From contig NZ_BNBY01000022.1 in NCBI RefSeq assembly GCF_014656195.1, forward strand, positions 24,989 to 88,988: 64,000 nucleotides of DNA, given 5' to 3'. Made by a program: the position numbers and the translations under genes. Shown here one piece after another: positions 34,959 through 47,947 of the stretch. How positions within the stretch are numbered: position 1 is the stretch's first letter; the number at the start of each line of letters is the position of its first letter. The notes below the pieces were generated by a model that was not told the DNA's origin, did no database searches, and saw only the letters and a program-made list of their open reading frames with translations. Source of the stretch: Kitasatospora xanthocidica. GTDB taxonomy: Bacteria > Actinomycetota > Actinomycetes > Streptomycetales > Streptomycetaceae.

Positions 34959-35840
34959 TCAGAGGCGGCGCAGGACCGCGACGACCTTGCCCAGGATGGT
35001 CGCGTTGTCGCCGTTGATCGGCTCGTACGCCGGGTTGTGCGGCATCAGCCAGATCCGGCCGTCCTCGCGCTTGAGCCGCTTGACGGTGGCCTCGCCGTCG
35101 ATCATCGCGGCCACGATGTCGCCGTTCTCGGCGACCGGCTGGCGGCGCACGGTGACCCAGTCGCCGTCGCAGATGGCCGCCTCGATCATCGAGTCGCCGC
35201 GCACGGTGAGCGCGAACAGCTCGCCCTCGCCGACCAGTTGGCGGGGCAGCGGGAAGACGTCCTCGACCGTCTGCTCGGCCAGGATCGGCCCGCCGGCGGC
35301 GATCCGGCCCACCAGCGGCACGTACGAGGTGGACGGGCGCCCGGCCGTCTCGGCGGTGTTGGGACGGGCCACCTCGACGCCGCGGACCTCGTAGGCGCGC
35401 GGACGGTGCGGGTCCCGGCGCAGGAAGCCCTTGCGCTCCAGGGCCATCAGCTGGTGCGCGACCGAGGAGGTGCTGGACAGGCCGACGGCCTGGCCGATCT
35501 CGCGCATGGACGGCGGGTAGCCCCGGCGCTGGACGGAGTCCCGGATGACCTCGATCACCCGGCGCTGGCGCTCGGTGAGCCCGGCCTCGTCGGTCCGGAT
35601 GCCGGGGGGGCGGCCGGGCATCGCCCGGGCGGGCGAGGGGTGGGAGTCATCCATGGTGGCGGAGTGTTCGATCGGCTGGTCGGGCACCCGGTTCGAGCCG
35701 GAAAGGGCCGTACCGGAGAGGCGGTGGTCTTCGCTGCGGTCCATGCTGATGTCCACGCTCTGCTGATTCGTGGTGCGCTGCCCCACCTTGAACTGGGAGT
35801 GTTCCTGCACCGGGATGGTGTTGCTTTCGATCGTGTTCAC
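34959..35840 (-). CDS. lexA: LexA repressor
   Basis: LexA represses SOS genes and cleaves itself when stimulated by RecA filaments. In the 293-residue protein, the winged-helix domain starts at [17 protein letters not shown] and includes [16 protein letters not shown]; the Ala-Gly cleavage site is in [12 protein letters not shown]; catalytic Ser is in GDSMIEAAI and Lys in [10 protein letters not shown]. About 80 extra N-terminal residues precede the DNA-binding domain, longer than in most LexA proteins. The GTG at 35840 is chosen for its GAGGGG site; a start closer to the domain is possible. Two LexA boxes lie upstream, so autoregulation is likely. Confidence 0.93.
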
Positions 35841-35907
35841 GGCGGCCCCTCTCGACGGCTGTCCTCTCCCTTTTCCAGCCCAACGCACCTCCTATCGAAA
35901 GGTTGCG

Positions 35908-35923
35908 CCAAACACACGTTCGA
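35908..35923 (-). promoter_or_regulatory. LexA-type box proximal to lexA
   Basis: On the minus strand the sequence reads TCGAACGTGTGTTTGG: a perfect left half TCGAAC and a weaker right half. It is 68 bp upstream of the lexA start and probably mediates autorepression. Confidence 0.7.
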
Positions 35924-35970
35924 GTGAATTATTCGGGACTTGGCTGACTCGATCAAGGCTTTGTTGTACA

Positions 35971-35986
35971 TCGAGTAAATGTTCGA
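35971..35986. promoter_or_regulatory. LexA-type box distal to lexA
   Basis: TCGAGTAAATGTTCGA matches TCGAAC-N4-GTTCGA at all but two positions, with a perfect right half. It is 131 bp from lexA and about 200 bp from nrdR, so it could act on either of the divergent genes. Confidence 0.75.
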
Positions 35987-36050
35987 CCAGAACCCGACCC
36001 GGGCAGTCTAATCGGCGCCGACACGCCAGGGGTGTCACCTCCCCCGGAGA

Positions 36051-36095
36051 CCTAGATGTAGTGGCTACAGTCCTCTCCGTGCCCAGTACTAGTGG
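36051..36095. promoter_or_regulatory. Tandem NrdR boxes upstream of nrdRJ
   Basis: CCTAGATGTAGTGG (36051-36064) and CCCAGTACTAGTGG (36082-36095) share ten of fourteen positions and are spaced exactly 31 bp apart, about three helical turns. This is the known arrangement of paired NrdR boxes at ribonucleotide reductase promoters. NrdR with bound dATP/ATP would repress nrdR and nrdJ when deoxynucleotides are ample. Confidence 0.78.
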
Positions 36096-36182
36096 TTGCC
36101 GCGCATGATCAGCTTGCCGAGGCCGGGGGCACATCGCATAGACTCAAGAGGTCCGCACGATCTGCCAGGGAGGGATCCCCAG

Positions 36183-36683
36183 GTGCACTGCCCCTTCTGC
36201 CGGCACTCCGACAGCCGCGTTGTCGACAGCCGGACCACCGAGGACGGCAGCTGTATCCGCCGCCGCCGGCAGTGCCCGGACTGCGGCCGCCGCTTCACCA
36301 CCGTGGAAACGGCCGCGCTGATGGTCATCAAGCGCAGCGGCGTCACCGAGCCGTTCTCCCGGCAGAAGGTCATCACCGGCGTCCGCAAGGCCTGCCAGGG
36401 CCGACCGGTCACCGAGGACGCGCTCGCCCAGCTCGGCCAGCGGGTCGAGGAGTGCGTGCGGGCCAGCGGCAGCGCCGAGCTGACCACCCACGACGTGGGC
36501 CTGGCCATACTGGGCCCGCTCAAGGAACTCGACGTGGTCGCCTACCTGCGCTTCGCCAGCGTGTACCAGGCCTACGACGGACTGGAAGACTTCGAGGTCG
36601 CCATCGCGGAACTCCGCGCCGAGCGGCCCCTCACCCCGGAGACGGACGACGCCTGCGTCTCCGTCCCCGCCGCCGCGCCCTAG
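36183..36683 (+). CDS. nrdR: Transcriptional repressor NrdR
   Basis: NrdR senses nucleotides through an ATP-cone and represses ribonucleotide reductase genes. The 166-residue protein starts at the zinc ribbon (VHCPFCRH... QCPDCGRRF, four cysteines), followed by the [19 protein letters not shown] start of the ATP-cone and [19 protein letters not shown]. The GTG at 36183 has AGGGAGGG about 8 nt upstream and places the first CxxC at residue 3, as in other NrdR proteins. Downstream, 211 bp separate it from nrdJ; that gap holds only a weak hairpin (GGCAGG 36797-36802 with CCTGCC 36810-36815). Confidence 0.96.
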
Positions 36684-36894
36684 GAGGCGCCGGCGCACCG
36701 GCCCCCGCCGCGGGGTCCAGCCGCACCACAACGGCCCCACGGGGCCCCCGCGTGCCCGGAAACGGCGCGCAGAACACTACAAACCGTGCGAAAACAGGCA
36801 GGGTCTCCGCCTGCCCGCACACCGGAAGAACGAACCAGCGGTGCCCGGACTTTTCAGGGCACTACGGGCGTTTGCCCAGGAGGAGGAGCGAGAA

Positions 36895-39774
<2,880 letters not shown>

Positions 39775-39815
39775 TCGCGTTCGACCCCGGTTTCACCCGC
39801 TGAGGTGAATCCCTG

Positions 39816-39850
39816 AGGCGGGGCGAGGACTTCACGTCCTCGCCCCGCCT
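39816..39850 (+). terminator. Terminator after nrdJ
   Basis: AGGCGGGGCGAGGAC (39816-39830) pairs perfectly with GTCCTCGCCCCGCCT (39836-39850) around a 5-nt loop and is followed by TTT, giving the form of a canonical intrinsic terminator. Confidence 0.92.
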
Positions 39851-39954
39851 TTTCGCGTTCTCCTCCGTTCTTCCGGGCCGTCGATGTCGTCGATGTCACG
39901 GATCGGGGCCGTGGTCGGTCTGTAGGGGGAAGGGCAGTCGACGGGAGGAGTGGT

Positions 39955-40725
39955 GTGGTGAACGGGACGGTGCTGGTGACCGGGGCGACGGGGACGTTGG
40001 GGCGGGAGGTGGTGCGGCTGCTGGTGGCGCGCGGGGTGGCGGTGCGGGGGTTGAGCCGGCGGGTGCGGGGCGGGGGTGACGGGGTCGAGTGGGTGGTCGG
40101 GGACCTGGTGACCGGGGCGGGGATCGCGGAGGCGATGGCCGGGGTCGAGGTGGTGGTGGACTGCGCGACCACGCAGAAGAAGGCGGACGTGGCCGGGGTG
40201 CGGACGCTGGTGGCGCGGGCGCGGGAGGCGGGGGTCCGGCACCTGGTGTACGTGTCGATCGTGGGGATCGACCGGGTGCCGATCGCGTACTACGGGGCGA
40301 AGCTGGCCTGTGAGTCGGTGGTGCGGGAGTCGGGGCTGGGGTGGTCGGTGCTGCGGGCCACGCAGTTCCACGACCTGTTGCTGAGGTTCTTCGACGCCGG
40401 GGTGCGGCTGCCGGTGTTCCCGGTGCTCGGCGGGGTGCGGTTCCAGCCGGTGGACGTCCGGGAGGTGGCGGAGGCGGTGGCCGGGCTGGTGGGGGAGGAG
40501 CCCGTCGGGTTCGCGCCGGAGGTGGGCGGGCCGCAGGTGCGGTCGTACCGGGAGCTGGCCCGGGCGTACCTGCGGGCGGCGGGCAAGCGGCGGGTGCTGC
40601 TGCCGTTGTGGATTCCGGGGGCGGGGGGCCGGGGGCTGCGCGGGGGCGGGCTGTTGGCGCCGGGGCGAGCGGTGGGCCGGGGGACCTTCGAGGAGGCGCT
40701 GGAGCGGAGGTTCGGGCAGCGCTGA
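39955..40725 (+). CDS. NmrA-type NAD(P)-binding protein (atypical SDR)
   Basis: A 256-residue Rossmann-fold protein of the NmrA/atypical short-chain reductase group. The dinucleotide motif is VLVTGATGTLGREVVRLL (about residues 6-23); HLVYVSIVGIDRVPIAYYGAKL carries the mid-domain Tyr and Lys. NmrA-like members often act as redox sensors, others as epimerases or quinone reductases. Starts GTG 39955 and GTG 39958 are equally usable with GGGAGGAG upstream. Codons are unusually rich in GGG and GTG compared with neighbours, giving an almost C-poor coding strand. No operon partner is evident. Confidence 0.82.
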   Translation: MVNGTVLVTGATGTLGREVVRLLVARGVAVRGLSRRVRGGGDGVEWVVGDLVTGAGIAEAMAGVEVVVDCATTQKKADVAGVRTLVARAREAGVRHLVYVSIVGIDRVPIAYYGAKLACESVVRESGLGWSVLRATQFHDLLLRFFDAGVRLPVFPVLGGVRFQPVDVREVAEAVAGLVGEEPVGFAPEVGGPQVRSYRELARAYLRAAGKRRVLLPLWIPGAGGRGLRGGGLLAPGRAVGRGTFEEALERRFGQR

Positions 40726-40736
40726 CGCCGGGGTTT

Positions 40737-40783
40737 TGTCAACCGGGGTTGACATCGTCGTGGCTGTCAACCAAAGTTGACAG
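40737..40783. promoter_or_regulatory. Double palindromic operator of the HTH/ClpN gene pair
   Basis: TGTCAACCGGGGTTGACA (40737-40754) is an 18-bp perfect palindrome. CTGTCAAC-CAAA-GTTGACAG (40764-40783) has perfect 8-bp arms. Both share TGTCAAC/GTTGACA, and their centres are 28 bp apart. The second ends one base before the HTH start codon, so a bound dimer would cover the promoter and start. The shared TTGACA word also looks like a -35 hexamer. Confidence 0.8.
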
Positions 40784-40784
40784 C

Positions 40785-41021
40785 ATGAGCGAGAGCGGAG
40801 AACTCGCGGCCGCGGCGAGCAGTCGTGACCCTGCGGTGGGGCTCCGGTCGGTCCGCGCCCTGCGTGACCTGGCGGACCGGCTGGAGGCCCTGCAGGTGGG
40901 CAACGCCCGGTCGCAGGGCTGGTCCTGGCAGGACATCGCGGTCTGCCTCGGGGTGACCAGGCAAGCGGTGCACAAGAAGTACGCGAAGCGCGGCGCCGGT
41001 GGCGACCAGGACGGAGGTTGA
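40785..41021 (+). CDS. Small helix-turn-helix protein
   Basis: A 78-residue protein with a short N-terminal helix pair (LRSVRALRDLADRLEALQVG) and a helix-turn-helix GWSWQDIAVCLGVTRQAVHKKYAKR that resembles sigma region 4 or resolvase-type HTH units. It has no effector domain. The ATG at 40785 follows the second palindrome by one base, making an autoregulatory repressor plausible. The Clp N-domain gene starts 3 bp after the stop. This pair recurs, to my memory, in many streptomycetes, but I know of no assigned function. Confidence 0.8.
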   Translation: MSESGELAAAASSRDPAVGLRSVRALRDLADRLEALQVGNARSQGWSWQDIAVCLGVTRQAVHKKYAKRGAGGDQDGG

Positions 41022-41024
41022 GCG

Positions 41025-41597
41025 ATGTTCGAGCGTTTCACCGAACGGGCCCGGCGGGTGGTGACCGGTGCGCAGCAGGAGGCGCGGGAACTGCGGCACG
41101 GCTACATCGGGACGGAGCACCTGCTGCTGGCGATCCTCGGCGTGCCGGAGGACCCGGCGGCCGCCGTCCTGGTCGAGGCGGGCCTGGACCACGAGACCGC
41201 GCGGCGGGCGGTGCGCCGACTGGTCGGGCCGGGGGACGACGCCGCCGCCCTGGCGGCGATCGGGGTCGACCTGGACGCGGTGCGGGAAGCGGTCGAGTCG
41301 GCGTTCGGGGAGGGGGCCCTGGACGTCCGGCCCGAGGAGGAGCCGAAGCGGCGGGGCTGGTTCCGCTCCGGCGGTTCCTCCGTCGGGCGCAGCCCGTTCA
41401 CGGCCCGGGCGAAGAAGGCCCTGGAGCTGTCGCTGCGGGAGTCGCTGCGGCTGAAGTCGGGGGAGATCGGCGTGGGGCACCTGCTGCTGGGTGTGCTCCG
41501 GGAGGGGGAGGGGGAGGGGCCGGCGGTGCGGGTGCTCCTCGATCACGGGCTGGACCCGGGGGCCGTCCGGCGGGCGGTCGAGCGGACGCTGGGCTGA
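41025..41597 (+). CDS. Stand-alone Clp N-terminal (ClpC-type) domain protein
   Basis: A 190-residue protein composed of two Clp_N repeats without any AAA+ ATPase domain. The first starts MFERFTERARRVVTGAQQEA with RHGYIGTEHLLLAIL, and the second has FTARAKKALELSLRESLRLK followed by EIGVGHLLLGVLREGEG. In ClpC this domain binds adaptors and phospho-arginine-marked substrates. Here it is separated by an insert (residues about 95-120) rich in Glu and Arg. It could act as a decoy, adaptor or ligand sensor. It has a GGAGG ribosome site overlapping the HTH gene end and is in an operon with it. Confidence 0.88.
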   Translation: MFERFTERARRVVTGAQQEARELRHGYIGTEHLLLAILGVPEDPAAAVLVEAGLDHETARRAVRRLVGPGDDAAALAAIGVDLDAVREAVESAFGEGALDVRPEEEPKRRGWFRSGGSSVGRSPFTARAKKALELSLRESLRLKSGEIGVGHLLLGVLREGEGEGPAVRVLLDHGLDPGAVRRAVERTLG

Positions 41598-41712
41598 ACC
41601 GTTCGGGCGTGAACGTTCGGGCACGAGGATTCGGCCGTGAACCGATGGCACGACGGTTCGGCTGTGAACCGTCGGGTGTGGCCCATCGGCTGTGAACGTG
41701 CGGGTGTGAATC
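41598..41712. repeat. Degenerate 13-15-bp tandem repeats upstream of the conservon
   Basis: About eight imperfect units of the form CGTTCGGGCGTGAA follow each other (CGTTCGGGCACGAG, GATTCGGCCGTGAA, CGGTTCGGCTGTGAA, CGTGCGGGTGTGAA). They fill the first part of the 381-bp gap between the ClpN gene and cvnA. The remainder holds a likely promoter and the stem TGATCGG (41818-41824) / CCGATCA (41838-41844). Confidence 0.65.
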
Positions 41713-41793
41713 CGGCCACTCGGCGGTGCGGCGGTTGCGTCGTCAATCGGTGTACGGGACGTGGATGAAGGAGACTGCCCGTCAACTGGCCAC

Positions 41794-41821
41794 TTGAGGC
41801 CAATGTCTGAATCGATATGAT
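41794..41821 (+). promoter_or_regulatory. Putative conservon promoter
   Basis: TTGAGG (41794-41799) and TATGAT (41816-41821) are spaced by 16 bp, close to the vegetative sigma consensus. The first conservon gene starts 158 bp downstream, which implies a long untranslated leader. Confidence 0.5.
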
Positions 41822-41978
41822 CGGCCGAAAGCGTGAACCGATCAGCCGCCCGGAGACGTTTCGTCGCGTCCCCGGGCGGTCTGGCATGCGCCCGACCAGC
41901 TGTCGGCGGTCGCGAGAGTCGCCGACCCGCCGCCGTGCCGCCGCCCGCCGCCCGCCGACGTTGCCGAGGACCGCACCG

Positions 41979-43763
41979 ATGAGAGAAGCCACCAGCCCCG
42001 ACGGCCGGCCGAGCCGACGGCCCGCGCCGCGCACCGTCGCCCTGACGGCGGCCGCCGTCCTGCTGGCACTGGCCGCCGCACCGGTCGGTGTCAGCCGGGC
42101 CCTGGACGCGAACCAGCCGCTCACCGCCCTCGCCGTGGGCGCCGTCGCCGTCCTCTGGCTGATCGCCGTCGGTCTGGCGGCGATCGGCGCCGAGCGCTCC
42201 CGCCGGCTCGCCGAGGAGGTGGCGGAGAAGCACGAGGAGGCGATGACGGCGCTCGTCGTCGCGGGCTCCGCCCGGCAGTCCGAGGCGGCGGCCAGGGGAC
42301 GGGCCGGCGCGGCCGAGGCCGAGCGGGACGCCGCCCGCGCCGAGCTGGCCCGGGCCGAGGCGGACGTCGCCACGGTGCGGGCCGAGCTGGCCGGGGTGCG
42401 GGCCGAGCTGGACGCCGAGCGGGCCGGCCTGGAGGCGGAGCGGGCGCGGGCCGAGGCGGAGCGCGCCGAGCTGGACCTGATCGCCGAGGGGGTCCTGCCC
42501 GAGGTGGTGGAGAGGCTGCGCGCGGGCGCGGCCGTGGACAGCGCGCTGGCCGCCCACCGCAAGCACCCCCAGTACGCGCTGCTGCGGGCCGTCGGCGAGG
42601 AGATCGGCCGCGGCGAGCGGCTGCGGGCCGCCGCGCTCGCGGTGTGCGCGACGGCCGCCGGGCGGGTCCAGGCGCTGGCCACGAGCATGCACGCGGAGCT
42701 GCGCGAGATGCAGCACCGGCACGACGAGGAGGTCCTCGGCGACCTGCTGAGCCTGGACCACTCGACCGCCCAGGCGGGCCGGATGGCGGACAGCATCGCG
42801 GTGCTCACCGGTGCCCGCTCGGGCCGCCGTTGGGCGAAGCCGATCGCGGTGGAGTCGGTGCTGCGCGGTGCGCTCGGCCGGATCGGCGCCTACCAGCGGG
42901 TGCGGCTGCACAACGCCAGCTCCGCCGCGGTCGCCGGGTACGCCGCCGAGGGCGTCATGCACGCGCTGGCCGAGCTGCTGGACAACGCCACCAACTTCTC
43001 GGCCCCGCCGGCCGAGGTGCACGTCTACGTCGAGGAGGTGCCCGCCGGGCTGGCGGTCACCGTCGAGGACAGCGGCCTCGGCCTGGGCGACAGCTGGCTC
43101 CGCCGGGCCGAACGGGCGGTCTCCGCCGAGCCGCTGGACCTGACCACGCTCTCCGCCGGTACCCGGCTGGGCCTCGCGGTGGTCGGCATGCTGGCGCGCA
43201 AGCACGGGCTGCAGATCTCCTTCCGGCCGTCGGCGCGCGGCGGTACCGGGGTGGTGATGCTGATCCCGCAGCAGCTGATCACGCACCAGGCTCCGGCGCC
43301 CGCCCCGGTGTCCGTTCCCGTGTCCGGCCCGGCGTCCGCCCGGACGAAGGCGCCGGTCGTGGAGTCCGCGCGCCCCGTGCTCACCCCCGCCCGCCCGGCT
43401 CCCGCGCCCCTGCCGCCGGCGCCCGCCGCACCGACCGCGCTCACCGCCCCGGCCGCGCTCGCCGCCCCGCCCGTACCCGCCCCCCTCGCCGCGGCCCCCC
43501 GGCCGCCCGCGCCCGCCCGGATGACCGACAGCGGCCTGCCGCAGCGCCGGCGCGGGCAGACGCTGGCCACCACCCCGGCGGCCGACCGGACCGCGAAGCC
43601 CGTACGGGCCGACGCGGCGACCGCCGCCGCCCGGTTCGGCGCGTTCCGGCGGGCAGCCGCCCGTCCGGTGGAGGGCGAGCAGCGCTCCACCGGGATCCCG
43701 ACGCCGACCACGGACCCCGACACCACGCCCGACGCTTCCCCCGTCACCGAGAAGGACACCTGA
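41979..43763 (+). CDS. cvnA: Conservon sensor kinase-like membrane protein CvnA
   Basis: A 594-residue histidine-kinase-like protein that heads a conservon, the streptomycete counterpart of a receptor-G-protein module. Two helices (TVALTAAAVLLALAAAPVGV and LTALAVGAVAVLWLIAVGLAA, about residues 19-70) are followed by a long Ala/Glu/Arg coiled coil (75-170) made of repeated RAELAxxRAEL heptads. The LLSLDHSTAQAGRM segment holds the putative phospho-His (about 260), and the ATPase N-box is ELLDNATNFSAPP with DSGLGL. The C-terminal 150 residues are a Pro/Ala-rich tail. ATG 41979 has GAGGA upstream. Its stop overlaps the next start. Confidence 0.9.
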   Translation: MREATSPDGRPSRRPAPRTVALTAAAVLLALAAAPVGVSRALDANQPLTALAVGAVAVLWLIAVGLAAIGAERSRRLAEEVAEKHEEAMTALVVAGSARQSEAAARGRAGAAEAERDAARAELARAEADVATVRAELAGVRAELDAERAGLEAERARAEAERAELDLIAEGVLPEVVERLRAGAAVDSALAAHRKHPQYALLRAVGEEIGRGERLRAAALAVCATAAGRVQALATSMHAELREMQHRHDEEVLGDLLSLDHSTAQAGRMADSIAVLTGARSGRRWAKPIAVESVLRGALGRIGAYQRVRLHNASSAAVAGYAAEGVMHALAELLDNATNFSAPPAEVHVYVEEVPAGLAVTVEDSGLGLGDSWLRRAERAVSAEPLDLTTLSAGTRLGLAVVGMLARKHGLQISFRPSARGGTGVVMLIPQQLITHQAPAPAPVSVPVSGPASARTKAPVVESARPVLTPARPAPAPLPPAPAAPTALTAPAALAAPPVPAPLAAAPRPPAPARMTDSGLPQRRRGQTLATTPAADRTAKPVRADAATAAARFGAFRRAAARPVEGEQRSTGIPTPTTDPDTTPDASPVTEKDT

Positions 43764-44275
43764 TGAGCAGCGCCCCCGATCGCGACCTCGACTGGCTGCT
43801 GGAAAACCTGCTGGCGGCAACCCCCGGCACCCGGCACGCCCTGGTTCTCTCCGCCGACGGCCTCAAGCTCTGCCACACGGCCGGGCTGAGCACCGACCAG
43901 GCCGACCAGCTGGCGGCGATCGCCTCCGGTCTGCAGAGCCTGGCGCACGGCGCCTCGATCGAGTTCGGCGACGGCAGCGGCGGCGTCCGGCAGTCGATGA
44001 CCGAATTCCACGGCGGCATCCTGTGCATCGTGGCGGCGGGCGAGGGCGCGCACCTCGCGGTGGTCACGGACGACGAGGCGGACGTCGGCGTGGTCGGCCA
44101 CAACATGCACGGCCTGATCGAGCAGATCGGCGTCCACCTCAGCGCGCCGGCCCGCGACACGGCGGGCGGTCCGGTGGACGGCTCGGCGGGCGGACCGGAG
44201 GACGGGGCCGCGGCCGGAGCCCCGGACGGCGCCGCCGGCCCGAGCGCCGCCACACAGGAGGGCGCGGGGATATGA
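43763..44275 (+). CDS. cvnB: Roadblock/LC7 domain protein CvnB
   Basis: A 170-residue roadblock/LC7 protein that in conservons associates with the CvnD GTPase. The domain covers about residues 5-125, with WLLENLLAATPGTRHALVLSADGL, CHTAGLSTDQADQLAAIASGL and LAVVTDDEADVGVVGHNM. The last 35 residues are an Ala/Gly/Asp-rich tail (GGPVDGSAGGPEDG). The ATG shares its A with the cvnA stop, and the stop overlaps cvnC by 4 bp, showing tight coupling. Confidence 0.93.
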   Translation: MSSAPDRDLDWLLENLLAATPGTRHALVLSADGLKLCHTAGLSTDQADQLAAIASGLQSLAHGASIEFGDGSGGVRQSMTEFHGGILCIVAAGEGAHLAVVTDDEADVGVVGHNMHGLIEQIGVHLSAPARDTAGGPVDGSAGGPEDGAAAGAPDGAAGPSAATQEGAGI

Positions 44276-44640
44276 CCGACGGGCCGGTGCTGCCGGGCCG
44301 CGACGACGACCCGGACCGCCTCTACACCATCACCAAGGGCCGAAGCCGCTCCCCCGAGAACGCCTTCGACCTGGTCACCCTGATCGTCGCCGAACGGCAG
44401 CCGGCGTCGGGGATGCAGTCGGAGCACGTCCGGATCCTGCGGATGTGCGAGGCCCCGACCGCCGTCGTGGAGGTGGCGGCGGAGCTGGCGCTGCCGATCT
44501 CGGTGGTGAAGATCCTGCTCGGCGACCTGCTGGAGTCCGGGGCGGTCACCGCCCGCCACCCCAGGTTCGCGCCGAACAAGGCCCGGCTGCCCGACCTCGA
44601 CACGCTGAAGCAGGTGCTGCATGGCCTCCAACGGCTCTGA
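44272..44640 (+). CDS. cvnC: DUF742 protein CvnC
   Basis: A 122-residue DUF742 protein, the third conservon component. The winged-helix-like core includes RLYTITKGRSRSP, EHVRILRMCEAPTAVVEVAA and LPISVVKILLGDLLESGAV. It overlaps cvnB by 4 bp and cvnD by 20 bp. In characterised conservons this protein forms a membrane-associated complex with A, B and D; its biochemical activity is unknown. Confidence 0.93.
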   Translation: MTDGPVLPGRDDDPDRLYTITKGRSRSPENAFDLVTLIVAERQPASGMQSEHVRILRMCEAPTAVVEVAAELALPISVVKILLGDLLESGAVTARHPRFAPNKARLPDLDTLKQVLHGLQRL

Positions 44641-45367
44641 CGTCCGGCCCGCCGCCCCGCGGACCCCGCTGCGGGCGACCGCCGACAACGCGCTGAAGAT
44701 CGTCGTGGTCGGCGGCTTCGGCGTGGGCAAGACCACGCTGGTCGGCTCGGTCAGCGAGATCCGCCCGCTGAACACCGAAGAGGTGATGACCCGGGCGGGG
44801 GAGGGCATCGACCCGGCCGGTGACTGGGGCAAGCGCTCCACCACGGTCGCCTTCGACTTCGGCCGGATCACCCTCTCCGCGCGCCAGGTGCTGTACCTGT
44901 TCGGCGCGCCCGGACAGGAGCGCTTCTGGTTCCTCTGGGACCGGCTGTTCAGCGGCGCCCTGGGCGCGGTCGTCCTGGTGGACACCCGGCGGCTGGAGGA
45001 GTCCTGGTACGCGATCGACCGGCTGGAGCACCACGGCACCCCGTTCATCGTGGCCCGCAACAACTTCGGCGAGCCGACCCACACCCTGGAGCAGGTCCGC
45101 GAGGCGCTGGACCTGCCGACCGAGGTGCCGCTGGTGGACTGCGACGCGCGTGACCGCGAGTCCGGCAAGCGGGTGCTGATCGAACTGGTCCACCACCTGG
45201 CGGCCCTGGCCGGGGCCGACGAGGCCGCCCTGGCCGGGATCGACGAGGCCGTCTTTGCCGGGGCCGACGAGACCGCCGGGGCCGACGAGACCGCCCTGGC
45301 CGGGACCGACGAGGCCGTCGCCCCGGCAGCGGCCCCCACCGCGATGTACGAGGAGAGCACCCCGTGA
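44621..45367 (+). CDS. cvnD: Ras-like GTPase CvnD with repetitive tail
   Basis: A 248-residue small GTPase of the MglA/CvnD type. Motifs are G1 VVGGFGVGKTTL (about residues 29-40), G2 around KRSTTVAFDFG and G3 FGAPGQERFWFLWDRL, with Arg before Phe as in this family. The segment ARNNFGEPTHTLEQVREAL occupies the place of the usual N-K-x-D. Residues of about 195-235 form an imperfect repeat of LAGADEAALAGIDEAV-like units that is not part of the GTPase fold. It is coupled upstream to cvnC and overlaps the P450 start (GTGA). Confidence 0.92.
   Translation: MASNGSDVRPAAPRTPLRATADNALKIVVVGGFGVGKTTLVGSVSEIRPLNTEEVMTRAGEGIDPAGDWGKRSTTVAFDFGRITLSARQVLYLFGAPGQERFWFLWDRLFSGALGAVVLVDTRRLEESWYAIDRLEHHGTPFIVARNNFGEPTHTLEQVREALDLPTEVPLVDCDARDRESGKRVLIELVHHLAALAGADEAALAGIDEAVFAGADETAGADETALAGTDEAVAPAAAPTAMYEESTP
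45202..45320 (+). repeat. In-frame tandem repeat in the cvnD 3' end
   Basis: Units of about 24 bp around CTGGCCGGGGCCGACGAG recur five times with small changes (GGGATCGACGAGGCCGTC, GGGACCGACGAGGCCGTC). They encode repeated A-G-x-D-E-(A/T) peptides. Length variation between strains is likely. Confidence 0.75.
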
Positions 45368-46608
45368 CCGAGCCCGCCGCCACCCCGCCCCCGGGCTGCC
45401 CGGCGCACGCCGGCGCCACGCCGCTGTACGGGCCGCGCTTCCAGACCGACCCGGCCCAGCTCTACCGCGAGCTGCGTGCCGCGCACGGCCCGGTCGCCCC
45501 GGTCGAGCTGGCCGGCGGCGTGCCCGCGTGGCTGGTCATCGGCTACCGCGAGCTGCAGCTGGTCACCGGGCAGCCGCAGTTGTTCGGCCGGGACTCCAGC
45601 CGCTGGCACGCCTGGGAGACGCTGCCCGCCGACTGGCCGCTGAAGCCGATGATGGCGCCGGTGCCCTCGATCCTGTACGCCGAGGGCGAGGAGCACGTGC
45701 GGCGTTCGCGCGCGGTCACCGACGCGCTGGCCGGGATCGACCCGTACGAGCTGCGCAAGCACTCCGAGGAGATCGCCGACCAGCTGATCGACGAGTTCGC
45801 CGGGCGCGGCGAGGCAGACCTGGTCGCCGAGTACGCGCACCGGATGCCGCTGCTGGTGCTGTGCCGGGTGTTCGGCCTGGACGAGGAGCAGGCGCCGCAG
45901 CTGATCGCGGCGCTGCTGGCGATGCTGGACGGCGGCCCGGACGCGCCGGCCGGCGCGCAGCGGCTGCTGGAGCTGATGCTCGCGCTGGTCGAGGAGAAGG
46001 CCGAGTACCCCGGCGCCGACGTGGCCTCGCGGATGCTGGAGCACGAGGCGGGGCTGACCCACGACGAGGTGATGCGCGACCTGCGGGTGCTGCTGATCGC
46101 CGGCCACCAGCCGTCCTCGTACTGGATCTCCAACGCGCTGCGGCTGATGCTCACCGACGAGCGGTTCGCCGCCTCGCTGGCGGGCGGCCGCCGCAGCATC
46201 AGCCAGGCGCTCAACGAGGCGCTCTGGGAGGACACCCCGACGCAGATCTTCGCCGGGCGCTGGGCGGTCCGGGACACCCAGCTGGGCGGTCAGCGGATCG
46301 GCGCGGGCGACATGGTGCTGCTGGGCTTCGCCGGGGCCAACGCGGACCCGTCGGTCCGGCAGCCCGACGGCCGCCCGGCCGAGGGCAACCGGGCGCACAT
46401 GAGCTACTCGTACGGCGAGCACGGCTGCCCGTTCCCGGCGCAGGAGGCGGCCGAGGTGATCGCGACCACCGCGATCGAGGTGCTGCTGGACCGGCTGCCG
46501 GACCTGCGGCTGGCGGTGGCGGAGCACGCGCTGGTGTGGCGGCCGTCGGCCTGGGTGCGCGGGCTGGTGGCGCTGCCGGTCGCGTTCACCCCGGGCCACC
46601 AGGCCTGA
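45364..46608 (+). CDS. Conservon cytochrome P450, CYP157-like, lacking the ExxR motif
   Basis: A 414-residue P450 fused into the conservon by a GTGA overlap with cvnD. The heme cysteine is present in [17 protein letters not shown]. The otherwise invariant K-helix ExxR reads EALW (in [14 protein letters not shown]), and the I-helix AGxE/D-T-T reads AGHQPSSYW, so the usual acid-alcohol pair is missing. Streptomycete CYP157 proteins, found with conservons, are known to lack ExxR, so membership in that group is likely. It may have lost normal monooxygenation and act as a heme sensor or accessory to the next P450. Confidence 0.88.
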
Positions 46609-46620
46609 TCCGTCGACGTT

Positions 46621-46680
46621 CGTCGCCGTTCGCCGACACCCGTCGCCGTTCGCCGACACCCGTCGCTGTCCGTCGACACC
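46621..46680. repeat. Three head-to-tail 20-bp repeats between the two P450 genes
   Basis: Units 46621-46640 and 46641-46660 are identical (CGTCGCCGTTCGCCGACACC) and 46661-46680 differs by four bases. Related CCGTCGACG words flank the array on both sides. It fills about half of the 124-bp gap between the P450 genes. Confidence 0.85.
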
Positions 46681-46732
46681 CGGCCCGATCGGCCGGGACC
46701 CGTCGACGCCCGTCGTCCGAAAGAGAGTTGCG

Positions 46733-47947
46733 ATGACTGCTGCCCCGGCCCCGATCGTCCTCGACCCGCTGGCCCGTGACAACGCGGCCGAGGGCGCCCT
46801 GCTGCGGGCCGCCGGCCCGGTGGTGCCGATCGAGCTGCCCGGTGGCGTGGCCGCCTGGGCGGTGACGCAGCACGCGGCGGCCCGCGAGCTGCTGACGGAC
46901 GCCCGGGTGGTGAAGGACGCCGCGCACTGGGGGGCCTACCAGCGCGGCGAGGTGCCGAAGACCTGGCCGCTGATCGGCCTGGCGGTGCCCGGCCCGAGCA
47001 TGGTGACCACGGACGGCGCCGAGCACCGCCGGCTGCGGGCGCTGGTCGCGCACGCCTTCACCCCGCGCCGGGTGGAGCTGATGCGTCCGCGGGTCGAGGA
47101 GATCACCCACGCGCTGCTGGACGCCCTGGCGGCGGGGGAGGCGGAGGTCGACCTGAAGACGGCCTTCGCCTTCCCGCTGCCGATGACGGTGATCTGCTCG
47201 CTGCTGGGCGTGCCGGAGTCGGAGCACGGCGTGCTGCGCGACCTGTACGAGCGGTTCTTCGGCGTCAAGCCGGACCCGGCGGGCATCCAGGCGACCATCG
47301 CCGGGCTGAACGCCTTCGTCAACGACCTGGTGGCGCAGCGCCGTTCGGCCCCCGGGGAGGACCTGGCGAGCGTGCTGCTGGCGGCCGACACCGAGGGCGG
47401 GGCGCTGACCGACGCGGAGGCGGCGGCCACCCTGCGGGTGATCATCGCGGCCGGTCACGAGACCACGGTGAACCTGATCGGCAACGCGGTGCGGGCGCTG
47501 CTGGCGCACCCGGAGCAGCTGGAACTGGTGCGCGCGGGGAAGGTGTCCTGGGACGCGGTGGTGGAGGAGTCGCTCCGCTGGACCCCGCCGACCAGCAACT
47601 TCCTGTTCCGCTTCACCGCCGAGGACGTCGCGGTGGGCGACGTGGTGATCCCGGCGGGCGAGCCGGTGCTGGTGTCGTACAACGCGATCGGCCGCGACCC
47701 CTTGCAGCACGGGGTGACGGCGGAGCTGTTCGACATCACCCGGGACCCGAGCCGCCACCTGTCCTTCGGCCACGGCCCGCACGTCTGCCCGGGCTCGCCG
47801 CTGGCCCGGCTGGAGGCGGCGATCGCGCTGCCGGCGCTGTTCGAGCGGTTCCCGGACCTGTCGCTCGCGGTGCCGGACGCCGAGCTCCGGTCGAGCGGGT
47901 CGCTGGTGGTGAACAGCCTGCTGGAGCTGCCGATCCGGCTGTTCTGA
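46733..47947 (+). CDS. Cytochrome P450, CYP154-like
   Basis: A 404-residue soluble bacterial P450 with all canonical motifs: I-helix [17 protein letters not shown] (about residues 238-254), ExxR in [11 protein letters not shown], and the heme loop [22 protein letters not shown]154 enzymes typically accompany CYP157 in conservons and accept steroids, flavonoids or macrolactones in vitro; the natural substrate here is unknown. ATG 46733 is preceded by an AAGAGAG site. No ferredoxin gene is adjacent, so redox partners must come from elsewhere. Confidence 0.92.

Follow-up and report, generated by a model that had tools for sequence, protein, structure and literature searches.

We suggest, with slightly more confidence than doubt, that the first of two cytochrome P450 (P450) genes following a conservon in Kitasatospora xanthocidica encodes a CYP157-type CvnE accessory protein whose branch no longer performs monooxygenase chemistry while still holding heme, and which acts on a CvnA protein devoid of a sensor. 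The locus lies in a 64,000-nucleotide stretch of contig NZ_BNBY01000022.1 (positions 24,989 to 88,988, assembly GCF_014656195.1), hereafter the window, in which the gene in question (P450-1; 45364..46608, plus strand, 414 amino acids) precedes a CYP154-like canonical P450 gene (P450-2; 46733..47947, plus strand). P450-1 is a further member of the known CYP157/CvnE family, and the new part is a sharper, testable signature of one of its branches: judging from the sequences, residues that activate oxygen and probably serve redox docking have been lost, and putative heme-holding ones have been kept.

The heme-ligand cysteine of P450-1, Cys355 (46426..46428), is present in a loop reading GEHGC355PFPAQ and is directly followed by a two-residue Pro-Phe insert (46429..46434), which we use as the branch marker. 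At the position of the ExxR motif stands E285-A-L-W288 (46216..46227), in which the glutamate is kept and the arginine replaced by tryptophan. In the I helix, AGHQPS (46099..46116) replaces AGHETT, with Gln249 in place of the acid and Pro250 in place of the alcohol, and a motif scan of the whole protein returned no match to [AG]G-x-[DE]-T-[TS]. In addition to what the earlier note listed, P450-1 is without the meander D-x-x-R and without the C-helix arginine, which we take to be part of the ferredoxin-docking face; Ser115 occupies its place in the string HVRRS (45694..45708), where His111 is kept. His111, His353 and Arg299 are presumably heme-anchoring positions, by comparison with P450cam. 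Position 344 was considered for the third arginine of the E-R-R triad and ruled out, since an arginine is missing there in most of the 14 other P450s examined; the meander D-x-x-R fits better. The earlier note on this DNA had the position of P450-1, its EALW and AGHQPS strings, its cysteine and the canonical nature of P450-2 right; its statement that ExxR is missing holds for the arginine and not for Glu285.

The predicted structure of P450-1 is a complete P450 fold. In an AlphaFold2 model (71 aligned relatives; mean predicted local distance difference test score 88.5), the I helix comprises residues 233–264 and contains Pro250, and the K helix comprises residues 277–289 and contains E285–W288. 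The other E-x-x-R matches of the protein (residues 110, 235 and 340) all fall outside this K helix; restoration of ExxR elsewhere, which the earlier note had named as speaking against its proposal, is thus not seen in the model. The top Foldseek match to the model was CYP154C1, and the top VIA-align matches were CYP154C2 and CYP154C1 (Z 45.9 and 45.7, root-mean-square deviation 2.1 and 2.2, over 384 and 386 residues, respectively). CYP154C1 (PDB 1gwi, ~30% identity) is the closest solved fold, but unlike P450-1 it is described as a monooxygenase, and CYP154-like sequences form a group separate from that of P450-1.

Motifs were counted in 114 distinct CvnE sequences, including that of the window, collected from 80 named loci, the genus (30 of the matches fetched), the window's genome and six Streptomyces genomes; 120 sequences were reduced to 114 by removing six doubly fetched loci, and rows shorter than 350 amino acids had been dropped beforehand. 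The named loci, the best 80 of at least 506 relatives, lean towards the window sequence. The heme cysteine is found in 114/114 and the arginine of ExxR in 0/114 (113 Trp, 1 Tyr). The meander D-x-x-R is kept in five of the 114, compared to 43/43 neighbour P450s and all 14 other P450s of the window's genome used for comparison (out of 27 collected). Ninety-six sequences carry the two-residue insert after the cysteine and 18 do not. The I-helix glutamate is absent from all 96 insert-type sequences (one has Asp) and kept in 15/18 of the others; the C-helix arginine is present in 1/96 versus 18/18, and a threonine at the alcohol position in 6/96 versus 7/18. At the same time, the I-helix Trp254 occurs in 96/96 insert-type sequences versus one of the 18, and Trp288 in 96/96. 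Putative heme-anchoring residues are mostly kept: His111 of the C helix in 92/96 and 18/18 (110/114 overall), His353 of the cysteine loop in 94/96 and 18/18 (112/114 overall), and Arg299 of the beta strand in 96/96 versus 8/18.

Within this alignment, the change of the ExxR arginine to an aromatic residue is family-wide, whereas a single branch combines the insert with loss of the acid, the alcohol and the C-helix arginine. The arginine is absent throughout and the acid is kept in 15/18 sequences outside the insert branch; the double loss is a branch trait, seen beyond this locus but not throughout the family. The other three CvnE of the window's genome keep the I-helix acid (AANETT, AGNETS and AGHEPT). 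The earlier note had drawn a regulatory role from this double loss; the role agrees with published proposals, but the losses are not peculiar to the locus, nor do they define CvnE as such. Full-length orthologues (identity ≥72%) occur in 54/70 genomes of the genus, including the window's own. The closest named orthologue among the matches listed is from Streptomyces novaecaesareae NRRL B-1267 (98%), the other near ones being from Kitasatospora, and records from six named families show the motif pattern of P450-1, the Nocardiaceae being represented by a single, possibly mislabelled record. Two loci (L095 and L111, in records of Kibdelosporangium aridum and Rhodococcus rhodnii) have two CYP157 copies with the same motifs after one conservon, a case of transfer or of a mislabelled assembly. 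Two Nocardiopsis loci (L114 and L125) hold a doubled CYP157–CYP154 pair, in which the second CYP157 has threonine at the alcohol position and glutamine at the acid position.

A tree of 71 rows (33 insert-type CvnE, 18 other CvnE, 6 CYP154-like and 14 other P450s, the outgroup rows being long-branched) separates all 51 CvnE rows from the rest by a branch with a Shimodaira-Hasegawa-like approximate likelihood ratio test (SH-aLRT) value of 100, and the 33 insert-type rows by another with a value of 99. The CYP154-like rows form a separate group (SH-aLRT 100), and support for the non-insert CvnE as a group is just 60. The earlier note's description of a CYP157/CYP154-like pair on a conservon is supported, as is that of lost catalytic motifs beside a retained heme cysteine. 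Ratios of nonsynonymous to synonymous substitution rates (dN/dS) were obtained from 28 Kitasatospora-type loci, using close pairs only (identity ≥87%, dS <1.2). The medians were 0.23 for P450-1 (113 pairs), 0.25 for P450-2 (113), 0.27 for cvnD (48), 0.23 for cvnC (117) and 0.20 for cvnB (154). By this measure P450-1 is under purifying selection, like its canonical neighbour, and is not decaying. Chance, assembly error and a pseudogene were ruled out by the orthologues in 54/70 genomes of the genus together with purifying selection. Internal stops had been flagged in three orthologues (L034, L043 and L047); in the two of them that were followed in frame, L034 and L043, these are the proteins' own terminal stops.

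In the window, cvnA (41817..43763) encodes a sensor-kinase-like membrane protein with Pfam HATPase_c only and no NIT domain; its true start is possibly downstream, and its two predicted transmembrane helices have centres ~30 residues apart, with no extracytoplasmic sensor domain. The window's genome has eight conservons, four with a CYP157-like P450, and all four CvnA of the latter lack NIT; among the four without such a P450, NIT is found in three CvnA (E 8e-38 to 9e-29) but not in the fourth. Across 69 conservons from seven genomes (the window's own and six chosen Streptomyces genomes; a contig-end copy, G363:C129, and the weakest matches, E >1e-20, were left out of the cvnA set), CvnA was sensorless in 24/24 cases with CvnE versus 7/45 without (Fisher p 1e-12, related conservons being treated as independent). 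Four of the 24 were scored by eye, and CvnA with a single predicted transmembrane helix were counted as sensorless. This repeats on other genomes a link already reported in the parts of PMC8510531 and PMC13343842 drawn on here. Sensorless CvnA with no P450 found alongside include those of L063, L151, L159, L172, L182, L189 and L197; for L063, no GAF gene was evident by eye among the listed open reading frames (ORFs). The idea that CvnA beside CvnE is phospho-dead was dropped: at the histidine position in helix 1 of the DHp domain the window's CvnA has Thr and most of its relatives have Thr, Val or Asn, but this column also varies in sensor-bearing CvnA, many of which have Glu, Gln, Asn, Gly or Arg there, and the second histidine (LDH, helix 2) is nearly universal.

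P450-1 is also tied to the conservon as an operon member. Its GTG start at 45364 overlaps the stop codon of cvnD (45365-45367), giving a four-base GTGA overlap at 45364..45367, and such an overlap occurs in 73/75 cvnD-holding loci (GTGA 51, ATGA 22, absent 2), as the coupling to the GTPase gene described in the earlier note would have it. In the six Streptomyces genomes and the other three CvnE loci of the window's genome, which partly share loci with the former sample, it was seen in 7/7 insert-type and 8/16 other-type loci. A cvnD gene stands beside an insert-type CvnE in 79/84 loci. These overlap tallies, and those of gene type and of neighbouring P450s and their motifs, predate the removal of doubly fetched loci. 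When each gene of 100 CvnE loci was compared with the eight conservons of the window's genome, the P450 and every cvn gene found were nearest to one and the same reference conservon in 86/100; five loci had no cvn gene. In Streptomyces silaceus (L124, 4003-9477), cvnA-D nearest to the acid-keeping L062 type are joined to an insert-type CYP157 and a CYP154, the result of either a natural swap or an assembly chimera. The overlap with cvnD would also be expected from plain operon order, and what speaks for a partner concerns CvnA, namely a published model on the CvnA ATPase domains and the association with sensorless CvnA.

The canonical P450 next to CvnE is usual but not needed. Within 2.5 kb of 84 insert-type CvnE there were 44 same-strand CYP154-like genes, 20 convergent P450 genes, two second CYP157 genes and 17 loci with none, one locus ending early; 14 of 16 other-type loci had no neighbour P450 and two had a CYP154-like gene (five insert-type loci and one other-type locus being counted twice). 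Nine of 14 Pseudonocardiaceae insert-type loci are without a neighbour. In 43/43 same-strand neighbours (≥40% identity to P450-2, from 80 loci, duplicates not removed) the cysteine, both histidines, all three arginines, the ExxR glutamate, the acid glutamate and the alcohol threonine are kept. In place of the CYP154, one CYP157 subgroup (including L094, L097, L102, L113 and L120) repeatedly has downstream of it a canonical P450 in convergent orientation (GGETT, ETLR, RHFCVG).

Much of the framework is in print. CYP157 proteins without ExxR are described by Rupasinghe (FEBS Lett 2006), as relayed by PMC3599690, PMC4694641 and PMC5018878, and their linkage to conservons is likewise published. 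The accounts in PMC8510531 and PMC13343842 report that a P450-type CvnE accompanies a sensorless CvnA and may modulate it. The CvnE of S. coelicolor cvn9-12 resemble P450-1 in being a fifth conservon gene, in the P450 fold and in the sensorless CvnA (as given in the same two papers). P450-1 is grouped with CYP157 by motif strings (Trp for the ExxR arginine) and its place downstream of a conservon. In Table 2 of PMC3599690, CYP157A Svu023 of S. virginiae has GHQPT, EVLW and GEHRCPFPA, the insert-branch signature, whereas the CYP157C type (Svu024, AFETT and EQILW) keeps the acid and the alcohol. The combination of insert, C-helix arginine loss and I-helix change as a single branch signature, or any CvnE biochemistry, did not figure in the titles and opening abstract lines retrieved. 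By the account of PMC13343842, in the portion cited here, neither accessory type (CvnE or CvnF) had been studied biochemically before that work, and no CvnE has been assessed biochemically. CYP family names follow the literature.

We propose that P450-1 would bind heme through Cys355, and that its shape may respond to the heme or redox state or to a small ligand, which would sit either on the iron or in the distal pocket. The protein would dock on the cytosolic portion of the CvnA, which has no sensor of its own, and could thereby tune the CvnA–CvnB/C–CvnD switch, filling the role that the GAF-type CvnF has in cvn8; the ligand may be produced or broken down by the adjacent canonical P450, which is not obligatory. 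The site of action on CvnA is supported in print by analogy: according to PMC13343842, binding of CvnF8 to CvnA8 occurs and both the ATPase and the autophosphorylation of CvnA8 are stimulated by CvnF8, and an AlphaFold2 model places CvnE11 on the ATPase domains of CvnA11. CvnF8, like P450-1, is a fifth gene product by a sensorless CvnA and acts as proposed for CvnE, but its GAF fold is unrelated to P450. In a more far-reaching form, which we put forward tentatively and think doubtful as a whole, CvnE would be a P450-fold, thiolate-ligated heme sensor serving as the detachable input of a G-protein-like switch. CvnE would have replaced the lost extracytoplasmic sensor of CvnA, after which one branch lost oxygen activation and redox docking and fixed a remodelled pocket (Trp288, Trp254, the I-helix Gln-Pro and the insert after the cysteine), the adjacent P450 making or clearing the ligand.

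Several observations weigh against a branch that has abandoned catalysis in favour of acting on CvnA. The glutamate of ExxR is kept in 95/96 insert-type sequences versus 5/18 others, and a Thr, Ser or Cys beside the lost alcohol is mostly retained in the insert branch; conserved non-canonical motifs could equally serve an unusual reaction. Heme anchoring is not uniform across CvnE, because Arg299 is lost in 10/18 non-insert sequences. Conservon genes of mixed type occur in 9/100 CvnE loci, sensorless CvnA exist also without CvnE (7/45), and related conservons are no independent trials in the Fisher test on which that association was scored. Finally, 5/84 insert-type loci (L110, L117, L131, L138 and L144) have no cvnD alongside, although in one of them (L144) just 525 bases are available upstream. 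In these five, departures at the two heme-anchoring histidines are seen in three, versus 2/91 of the other insert-type sequences (Fisher p 0.0007, post hoc).

P450-1 may still be an enzyme of a peroxygenase-, isomerase- or dehydratase-like kind, needing neither the acid-alcohol pair nor electrons from ferredoxin, which we regard as rather unlikely. A full predicted P450 fold would suit such an enzyme, as would purifying selection that has preserved the heme residues; loss of the C-helix arginine would be in keeping with a P450 that uses no redox partner, and no ferredoxin candidate was seen among the small ORFs of the window, a weak negative from a rough motif filter. It sits, however, in a signalling operon in 79/84 insert-type loci and goes with sensorless CvnA, and no biosynthetic cluster is evident around it, since a solute-binding protein gene and two transport permease genes lie downstream of the P450 pair and the ORFs at 35500-41800, upstream of the conservon, are housekeeping-like by eye. 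We find it improbable that P450-1 is a pseudo-P450 heterodimer partner that stabilises or steers P450-2, as EryCII does for the glycosyltransferase EryCIII. The presence of a canonical P450 within 2.5 kb in 64/84 insert-type loci (44 same strand, 20 convergent) and the intact motifs of 43/43 same-strand neighbours would be expected of such a pair. In its favour, too, S. virginiae CYP154H (Svu022) converts estradiol to estriol, and its gene and the 157A gene svu023 both cluster with genes for ATP/GTP-binding proteins (PMC3599690). But a partner is lacking in 17/84 insert-type loci, including the 9/14 from Pseudonocardiaceae, and in 14/16 other-type loci.

The comparison with EryCII and DesVIII, P450 folds turned non-catalytic partners as glycosyltransferase activators, also bears on the notion of a heme-less plain scaffold of the signalling complex, to which we give little credence. 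The K-helix and meander arginines of P450-1 are gone, and P450 homologues of the EryCII type have lost heme according to the sections of PMC3391682 consulted. These same sections describe EryCII/DesVIII as being without the heme cysteine, and EryCII as being without the C helix, whereas P450-1 keeps the cysteine, as do all 114 CvnE, and has a predicted C helix; the putative heme-anchoring histidines are present in 110/114 and 112/114. P450-1 matches the EryCII/DesVIII-type model TIGR04515 weakly, at 85.8 bits, the cut-off of the model being 343. That P450-1 is a decaying duplicate of its neighbour is barely credible: several canonical motifs are indeed lost, but its dN/dS equals that of P450-2, CvnE and CYP154-like rows fall into separate tree groups, and the replacement residues Trp254 and Trp288 are invariant (96/96 each). 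We retain, as the somewhat favoured reading, a heme-holding CvnE that acts on sensorless CvnA.

The branch signature names the residues to probe and comes with natural controls: the canonical neighbour, acid-keeping CvnE in the same genome and conservon-less copies. Should CvnE prove to sense through heme, a way would open to the input of a large class of regulators of development and antibiotic production. There is also a caution for annotation. Pfam p450 gave no match to P450-1 at E 0.001, therefore P450 counts based on Pfam miss it; and PMC7369989, in the excerpt drawn on, labels proteins with just one of EXXR and CXG pseudo-P450s, yet counts CYP157. With 525 members in 203 species by its figures, CYP157 is one of the most frequent P450 families of Streptomyces.

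The complete conservon cvnA-B-C-D spans 41817-45367 and is followed by the two P450 genes on the same strand. After cvnA come cvnB (43763..44275), a roadblock/LC7 protein (Pfam Robl_LC7, E 6e-24), cvnC (44272..44640; Pfam DUF742, E 2e-37) and cvnD (44621..45367), identified as a small GTPase by Pfam ATP_bind_1 (E 1e-26) and its position in the conservon, all on the plus strand. P450-2 is recognised by Pfam p450 (E 4e-28) and by its motifs AGHETT (47450-47467), ESLR (47567-47578) and the heme cysteine (47786-47788).

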